Shown here: positions 50,919-51,319 of the stretch, in pieces
Numbering within the stretch: position 1 is the stretch's first letter
Layout of the letters: the number at the start of each line of letters is the position of its first letter
From: Cladocopium goreaui
Taxonomy: Eukaryota > Sar > Dinophyceae > Suessiales > Symbiodiniaceae
Length of the DNA stretch: 64,000 nucleotides
NCBI GenBank assembly: GCA_947184155.2
Contig: CAMXCT020001513.1
Coordinates: 407,501-471,500, forward strand
Direction of reading: 5' to 3'
The notes under the pieces: generated by a model
What the model was told of the DNA's origin: nothing
What the model saw: the letters and a program-made list of their open reading frames with translations, nothing else
Database searches by the model: none
Translations under genes and position numbers: made by a program

Positions 50919-51319
50919 TATACCGATATCCACAAAATTCCTCGTGTGGTTGGTGCTGTCCCACATTACCGTTTTTTTCAACTGGCCATCTAGGGCAAGA
51001 TCTTCATCTGGTTGGTGGTGCAATAACCATCTTGAAAAATGATGGAGTTCGTGAATGGGAAGGATGACATCCCATATGGCAGTGGGTCAAAACCTTGTAC
51101 CCCTGTAGTTCACATCAAAATAGCTGGTAAATGGATGTTCATCCCTCTAAAAATGGTATTGATAGGTATTGATTCATAGCCATATATGAAATGGAAAATA
51201 AAACATGTTCCAAACCACCAACCAGGCTTAAGGTGCCAGTGGGCTCGAAGCACCGGACCCCCCAAGGGGGCTGCCTCCTGCTCCTGTCGCACTGCTTCTA
51301 GGATTTCGGACTTCAAGGC
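50919..51319 (-). CDS. Two-exon gene fragment with an element as its intron
   Basis: Minus exon 1 (51319-51223) begins with G after GGGCGCAG and reads ALKSEILEAVRQEQEAAPLG, then GPVLRAHWHLKP. It ends CCTG/GTTGGT, the first bases of a family B element. The element ends CCAACCAG at 51008. Exon 2 (51007-50919) continues in frame as EDLALDGQLKKTVMWDSTNH to a GTTTGT donor. About 47 percent of exon 1 codons start with G, and about 76 percent of exon 2 codons start with a purine. The first part is helix-prone. Start and stop lie elsewhere. No family recognised. Confidence 0.55.
51008..51225. mobile_element. Composite family B element serving as an intron
   Basis: Terminal repeats CTGGTTGGTGGTG and CCAAACCACCAACCAG bound 218 bp. 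A family B core (51029-51078) is interrupted by about 100 bp of other sequence. On minus the removed segment would run from GT at 51222-51221 to AG at 51009-51008. Confidence 0.82.

Follow-up and report, generated by a model that had tools for sequence, protein, structure and literature searches.

A composite copy of an abundant dinoflagellate MITE that is probably not an exact intron, in a family that appears to have given rise to one in a kinesin gene

The element at 51008-51225 on the minus strand is, with a probability of roughly 0.7, an older insertion of a very abundant dinoflagellate MITE and probably not an intron with those exact boundaries, the role proposed for it in an initial annotation. 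Another copy of the same family, located in a kinesin gene, appears to be a precise intron whose removal restores the coding sequence, on protein evidence from that single case (n = 1). Coordinates refer to the window, the whole 64,000-nt stretch of DNA that was analysed (G000:C1513:407501-471500), which belongs to an assembly of 1.17 Gb in 6202 contigs. The dinoflagellate identity of this genome is borne out by 172 exact genome-wide matches to a 21-base sequence that we take to be the dinoflagellate spliced leader, while the backwards control gave 0.

The annotated terminal-inverted-repeat element is real. This family B copy measures 218 bp including a nested element; on the minus strand it starts CTGGTTGGTGGTTTGGAACATG... 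at 51225 and finishes ...TTGCACCACCAACCAG at 51008, with terminal repeats CTGGTTGGTGG (51215-51225) and CCACCAACCAG (51008-51018) that are exact across 11 bp, and its orientation is that of the kinesin copy on its coding strand. The left border on the minus strand reads ...AAGCCTG/GTTGGTGGTTTGG... (the slash marks a border), with the proposed donor GT at 51222-51221 inside the 5′ repeat, and the right border reads ...CCACCAACCAG/ATGAAG..., where the 3′ repeat is the source of the AG and 51008 is the last base of the element. The GT is indeed found directly after CCTG, where the repeat had been said to begin, but the symmetry takes in the preceding CTG as well, and the true start is CTGG, 3 bases ahead of the proposed donor. 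The copy is a composite: its outer part aligns with a simple 108-bp copy at 960-1067 that resembles it and has no nested element, while a second element of 104 bp (51078-51181; ends GGCAGTG and CATAGCC) sits inside it with ATAT on either side as a 4-bp duplication. Seven other fetched composite copies hold the same 104-bp element between ATAT copies, in outer variants that differ. The inner element is abundant in its own right; a search with 50950-51300 gave 2457 first-look candidates, and among the 40 best-scored, from which our figures are drawn, 27 matches were confined to roughly query positions 107-242, a stretch made up of the inner element plus its edges, with 91-98% identity. Several outer variants have it at approximately the same ATAT, a recurrence that suggests a target preference.

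The outer copy has no target duplication. On the minus strand it is preceded by AAGC and followed by ATGA, which match at 1 of 4 positions, and there is no GT at −4, the position of the donor in the verified kinesin copy. The acceptor of 51008-51225 would be AG/A, whereas all six introns placed by eye from protein (two in the CCT gene, two in C3546, and one each in C5891 and C5991) end AG/G; the other introns inspected could not be placed reliably (one of C3546 gives no in-frame join), and an intron between direct repeats has a border that can slide. In Symbiodinium, according to the available text of PMC4083563, AG is likewise frequently followed by G. As placed in this analysis, the introns of the CCT gene include GC-AG as well as GT-AG types, which likewise points to a dinoflagellate.

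MITEs are short, non-autonomous transposons with terminal inverted repeats (TIRs), and by its repeat number, its TIRs and its fixed-length duplication this family is a MITE, a non-autonomous TIR DNA transposon. Counting perfect 11-bp ends spaced 75-100 bases apart, we found 19,943 places genome-wide, 97-122 bp long, with 0 in the control. Within the window, CCACCAACCAG with at most one mismatch occurs 34 times, against 1.3 expected, and paired copies are mostly 98-118 bp long. Target duplications were assessed in 36 copies with automatically paired ends, drawn from the window, the composite matches, the first-listed copies on contig C2 and one kinesin gene, a set neither chosen for its flanks nor random: the 4-bp duplication is exact in 9 (shuffle mean 1.04, maximum 5 in 2000), and at least 3 of the 4 positions match in 16 (shuffle mean 5.3, maximum 13). 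Exact examples in the window are TTAC (GTAA on the minus strand) around the copy at 2769-2866, which lies in AT-rich DNA, AGAG at 10339-10445 and AATT at 39079-39186. The flanks are mostly AT-rich, with a G+C content of 0.15-0.45 in 48 of 51 copies; the exceptions are 51008-51225 (0.55 over 2 × 30 bp, tied for the highest), one other composite (0.55) and the kinesin copy (0.47). Among the papers listed by literature searches none was seen to name the family, and for the terminal sequence CACCAACCAG no related title stood among the matches listed.

The copies are also unevenly distributed, with 8 perfect ones in the window against 1.1 expected per 64 kb, a clustering at about 7 times the genome average, and the perfect copies listed on contig C2 are likewise clustered, the first of them at 409 kb. 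Outer elements from the window, C2 and C3, compared by eye, have internal stem halves that appear to change together (TTGGGA..TCCCAA in some, ATGGGA..TCCCAT in others); at several places they also differ by discrete alternative blocks, as though modules had passed between subfamilies.

The case for an intron comes from a kinesin-domain search with 104 matches, in which one gene among the 16 loci returned and examined (G000:C3546, about 287,200-289,000 on the minus strand; overlapping loci L057, L059 and L063) carries a family copy, 124 bp long and with one mismatch in one end. Its coding strand reads AACAAGA-GTTT-CTGG...ACCAG-GTTT-GAGTGCC, with GTTT on both sides, and the copy interrupts the codons for NINKS/LSALGNVI, a motif that is uninterrupted in two other kinesin loci (L048 and L051, from a narrowly framed text search across the 16 loci). 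With the donor in the duplication, the candidate intron is GTTTCTGG...CCAG, and removing GTTT...CAG leaves AAC AAG AGT TTG AGT GCC, or NKSLSA, a conserved kinesin motif; the protein so predicted matches PF00225 at positions 211-327 with 156.9 bits, and its alignment to a solved kinesin-2 continues across the junction. Splicing at the terminal-repeat GT, by comparison, produces a frameshift and leaves a PF00225 match over 211-270 only, with 49.7 bits. Because GTTT...CAG splicing restores the motor domain, the donor GT of this putative intron is assigned to the target duplication and the AG to the element, with the mRNA unchanged; the claim of the initial annotation that the element supplies the GT too is thus contradicted in the one verified copy. 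By the mechanism we propose, a MITE would land in an exon at a GTNN target, so that the upstream copy of the duplication would give the 5′ splice site GT; the right end of the MITE would give CAG and the downstream copy of the duplication the G after AG, and removal by splicing would bring back the original codons exactly. An intron of other sequence in the kinesin locus L051 (G000:C5891, about 105,813-105,931) starts with GTGA, ends in CCAG and is followed by a second GTGA; it has the duplication-donor pattern of C3546 but is not a member of this MITE family.

Around 51008-51225, the initial annotation had reported a reading frame that continues past the element, and this does run on across the proposed junction, for 49 codons on the left and 54 on the right. 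An open length beyond chance, however, is not shown: by its shorter side the frame ranks 4th among 204 junction frames of 34 copies, and the chance of a randomly placed junction in the window being open for at least 45 codons in both directions is P = 0.015 per frame. The figure of about 76% purine-first codons downstream was reproduced (75% over the 28 codons scored) but is not rare, as 159 of 6248 open 29-codon stretches drawn from the window (2.5%) reach 22 of 29. With a codon model trained on 3000 codons from CCT and kinesin exons in the same genome, the upstream open frame (AQALKSEILEAVRQEQEAAPLGGPVLRAHWHLKP; 51224-51325, minus strand, GC 0.64) scores 17.8 bits, a value that 9 of 8270 open windows reach (top 0.1%) and that lies at the 84th percentile of true exons; this frame is a possible exon. 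The downstream open frame (EDLALDGQLKKTVMWDSTNHTRNFVDIG; 50922-51005, minus strand) is indistinct at 2.6 bits, a score reached by 9.7% of open windows (1057 of 10,916). We also scored both sides jointly for 49 copies on both strands, or 98 copy-strands. With the donor taken from the duplication, the kinesin copy came first (8.1, where a score of 8 is reached at random junctions with P 0.0001) and 51008-51225 third (0.0); with the donor taken from the terminal repeat, 51008-51225 came second (2.3, where a score of 2 is reached at random junctions with P = 0.003), and the antisense of the kinesin copy was higher (2.4). The joined flanking frame had no match in Pfam, and the flanking frames gave one match at E 0.33 in one search of PDB sequences and none in another; against their own genome they returned only the locus itself and three matches with E 0.18-5 that we judged to be chance.

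The copy at 51008-51225 lacks the GTNN duplication needed by the mechanism demonstrated in the kinesin gene and is for that reason unlikely to be an intron with exactly those borders; the missing GT at −4, the AG/A acceptor, the lack of a homologue and the weak downstream coding signal count against the annotated intron as well. We favor an older MITE insertion that would later have been struck by the second MITE at 51078-51181, with its ATAT duplication, and whose location would be non-coding DNA or the interior of a longer intron, beside a GC-rich and possibly exonic stretch. Counting against this reading are the GC-rich flank, an upstream frame that scores like a true exon, two frames in phase, and the second place among 98 when the donor is taken from the terminal repeat. 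As a special case of the favored reading, and a tentative one, the element could be part of a longer, conventional intron in a gene on the minus strand, with the GC-rich exon ending before it (for instance at CCG/GTGCTT) and the next exon beginning past 51007 (for instance after ACGAG/G), both sites being guesses. A candidate donor GT and an AG/G acceptor do occur in the sequence and the upstream coding score agrees with such an exon, whereas searches of Pfam, PDB sequences and the genome itself turned up no homologue.

Splicing as originally annotated, at CTG/GT (51222) and CAG/ (51008) with both sites borne by the element and CTG, at one time together with a 4-bp duplication, left in the mRNA, we regard as unlikely. 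It is favored by the open phase shared by both sides, by the coding-like upstream frame and by the rank of 2 among 98, and an Aureococcus family is reported, in the accessible part of PMC9860276, to contain the donor as well as the acceptor site and to lengthen the transcript by 12 bp. With a 4-bp duplication, however, 7 nt would be added and every fresh insertion would cause a frameshift; moreover, the terminal-repeat GT is not the donor in the one verified copy, AG/A stands against AG/G in the six introns placed by eye, the downstream coding score is weak, and Pfam, PDB sequences and the own genome yielded no homologue or paralogue. A broader version, in which the terminal repeat (CTG/GT...CAG/) carries a weak donor and acceptor on either strand and could be spliced in both orientations at any target with 7 extra nt, 51008-51225 being such a case that is still spliced after the arrival of the second MITE, seems to us very improbable. 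We also give little credence to an exonic insertion of the GTNN type whose upstream duplication has decayed, leaving a donor that is now shifted or weak, or a damaged gene: the GC-rich flank, the coding-like upstream frame and the capability of the family in the kinesin case would suit it, but no residual duplication is seen (AAGC and ATGA agree at 1 of 4 positions), and decay to AAGC is not expected of a donor that serves a functional intron.

Other copies with a suitable target were compared with the kinesin case. Exact GTGG duplications flank 29 copies genome-wide, and among the 21 examined (20 fetched and one in hand) none is coding-like on both sides in sense, the best scoring −1.0 against 8.1 for the kinesin copy and the best antisense score being 0.7, in a comparison blind to exons of fewer than 22 codons. 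Of 20 fetched copies that are oriented as in the kinesin gene and have GT at −4, a right end is present in 17, and the duplication is exact in 4 of those 17. Six other dynein and kinesin stretches contain no family end with at most 2 mismatches, and twelve CCT loci hold single degenerate ends (at most 2 mismatches) with no pair closer than about 430 bp. A strand-symmetry count gave 965 GTNN versus 897 NNAC (binomial P 0.12), with a control, 920 TGNN versus 1057 NNCA, that is itself unequal (P about 0.002); relative to this control GTNN is in excess by about a quarter, which would favor splicing, and we set the excess aside because the control pair fails. From the copies looked at, the family apparently lies mostly outside exons, and its copies are best read as ordinary MITE insertions for the most part, with a minority that became introns.

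That introners are known in dinoflagellates, as the initial annotation stated, is established in the available text of PMC9860276, PMC7789003 and the review PMC11453091. Those of Symbiodinium microadriaticum are described, in the part of PMC9860276 at hand (Gozashti et al. 2022), as having TIRs, 4-bp duplications, a 3′ splice site in the element and a 5′ splice site from the duplication, an arrangement that, as described, is like that of the kinesin copy and is absent from 51008-51225. For dinoflagellate introners including those of Polarella glacialis, the accessible portion of the review PMC11453091, describing Roy et al. (2023), reports recent insertions and several families per genome, whereas the copies analysed here lie mostly in AT-rich, probably non-exonic DNA and include one verified intron only. 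Introner elements of Amoebophrya have inverted repeats and 3-5 nt direct repeats at exon borders but, as far as the excerpted text of PMC7789003 goes, are largely non-canonical and without family-specific inverted repeats, in contrast to the family-specific ends and the GT-AG verified intron found here. The same excerpt also gives the definition of MITEs, which our family resembles in its length of about 100 bp, its TIRs, its short duplications and its tens of thousands of copies.

On the strength of the one predicted kinesin intron, introner is the right class for the family; at 51008-51225 an exact intron that draws both splice sites from the MITE lacks support. A MITE family of about twenty thousand copies, most of them apparently not exonic, that turns into a clean intron on reaching a GTNN target within an exon would show that introns can be gained as a side effect of normal transposition and of the choice of target, without elements specialised for genes. 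The kinesin copy provides a concrete, testable case of a MITE-derived intron, and 51008-51225 a useful negative, in that a terminal GT and AG together with an open frame are insufficient by themselves.

Scans of the whole window with Rfam (at the gathering threshold) and for tRNAs found nothing. Elsewhere in the assembly G000, contigs C1 and C2380 carry full-length intronless PF00118 genes that look bacterial, so that bacterial contigs are probably included. The window further contains a tandem array of 3.7 copies of a 131-bp unit (11027-11509), another of 4.1 copies of a 94-bp unit (20210-20594), and a telomere-like AACCCTAA array at 45246-45315. A dispersed repeat, CCATAGCTATGTTAGTTTACCAGAGGGTA, is present in 13 copies in the window, including those at 2458-2508, 6109-6159, 17964-18014 and 60277-60327, and the similar CCAGAGG precedes three (L064, L065 and L068) of the fetched family B copies that have GT at −4.
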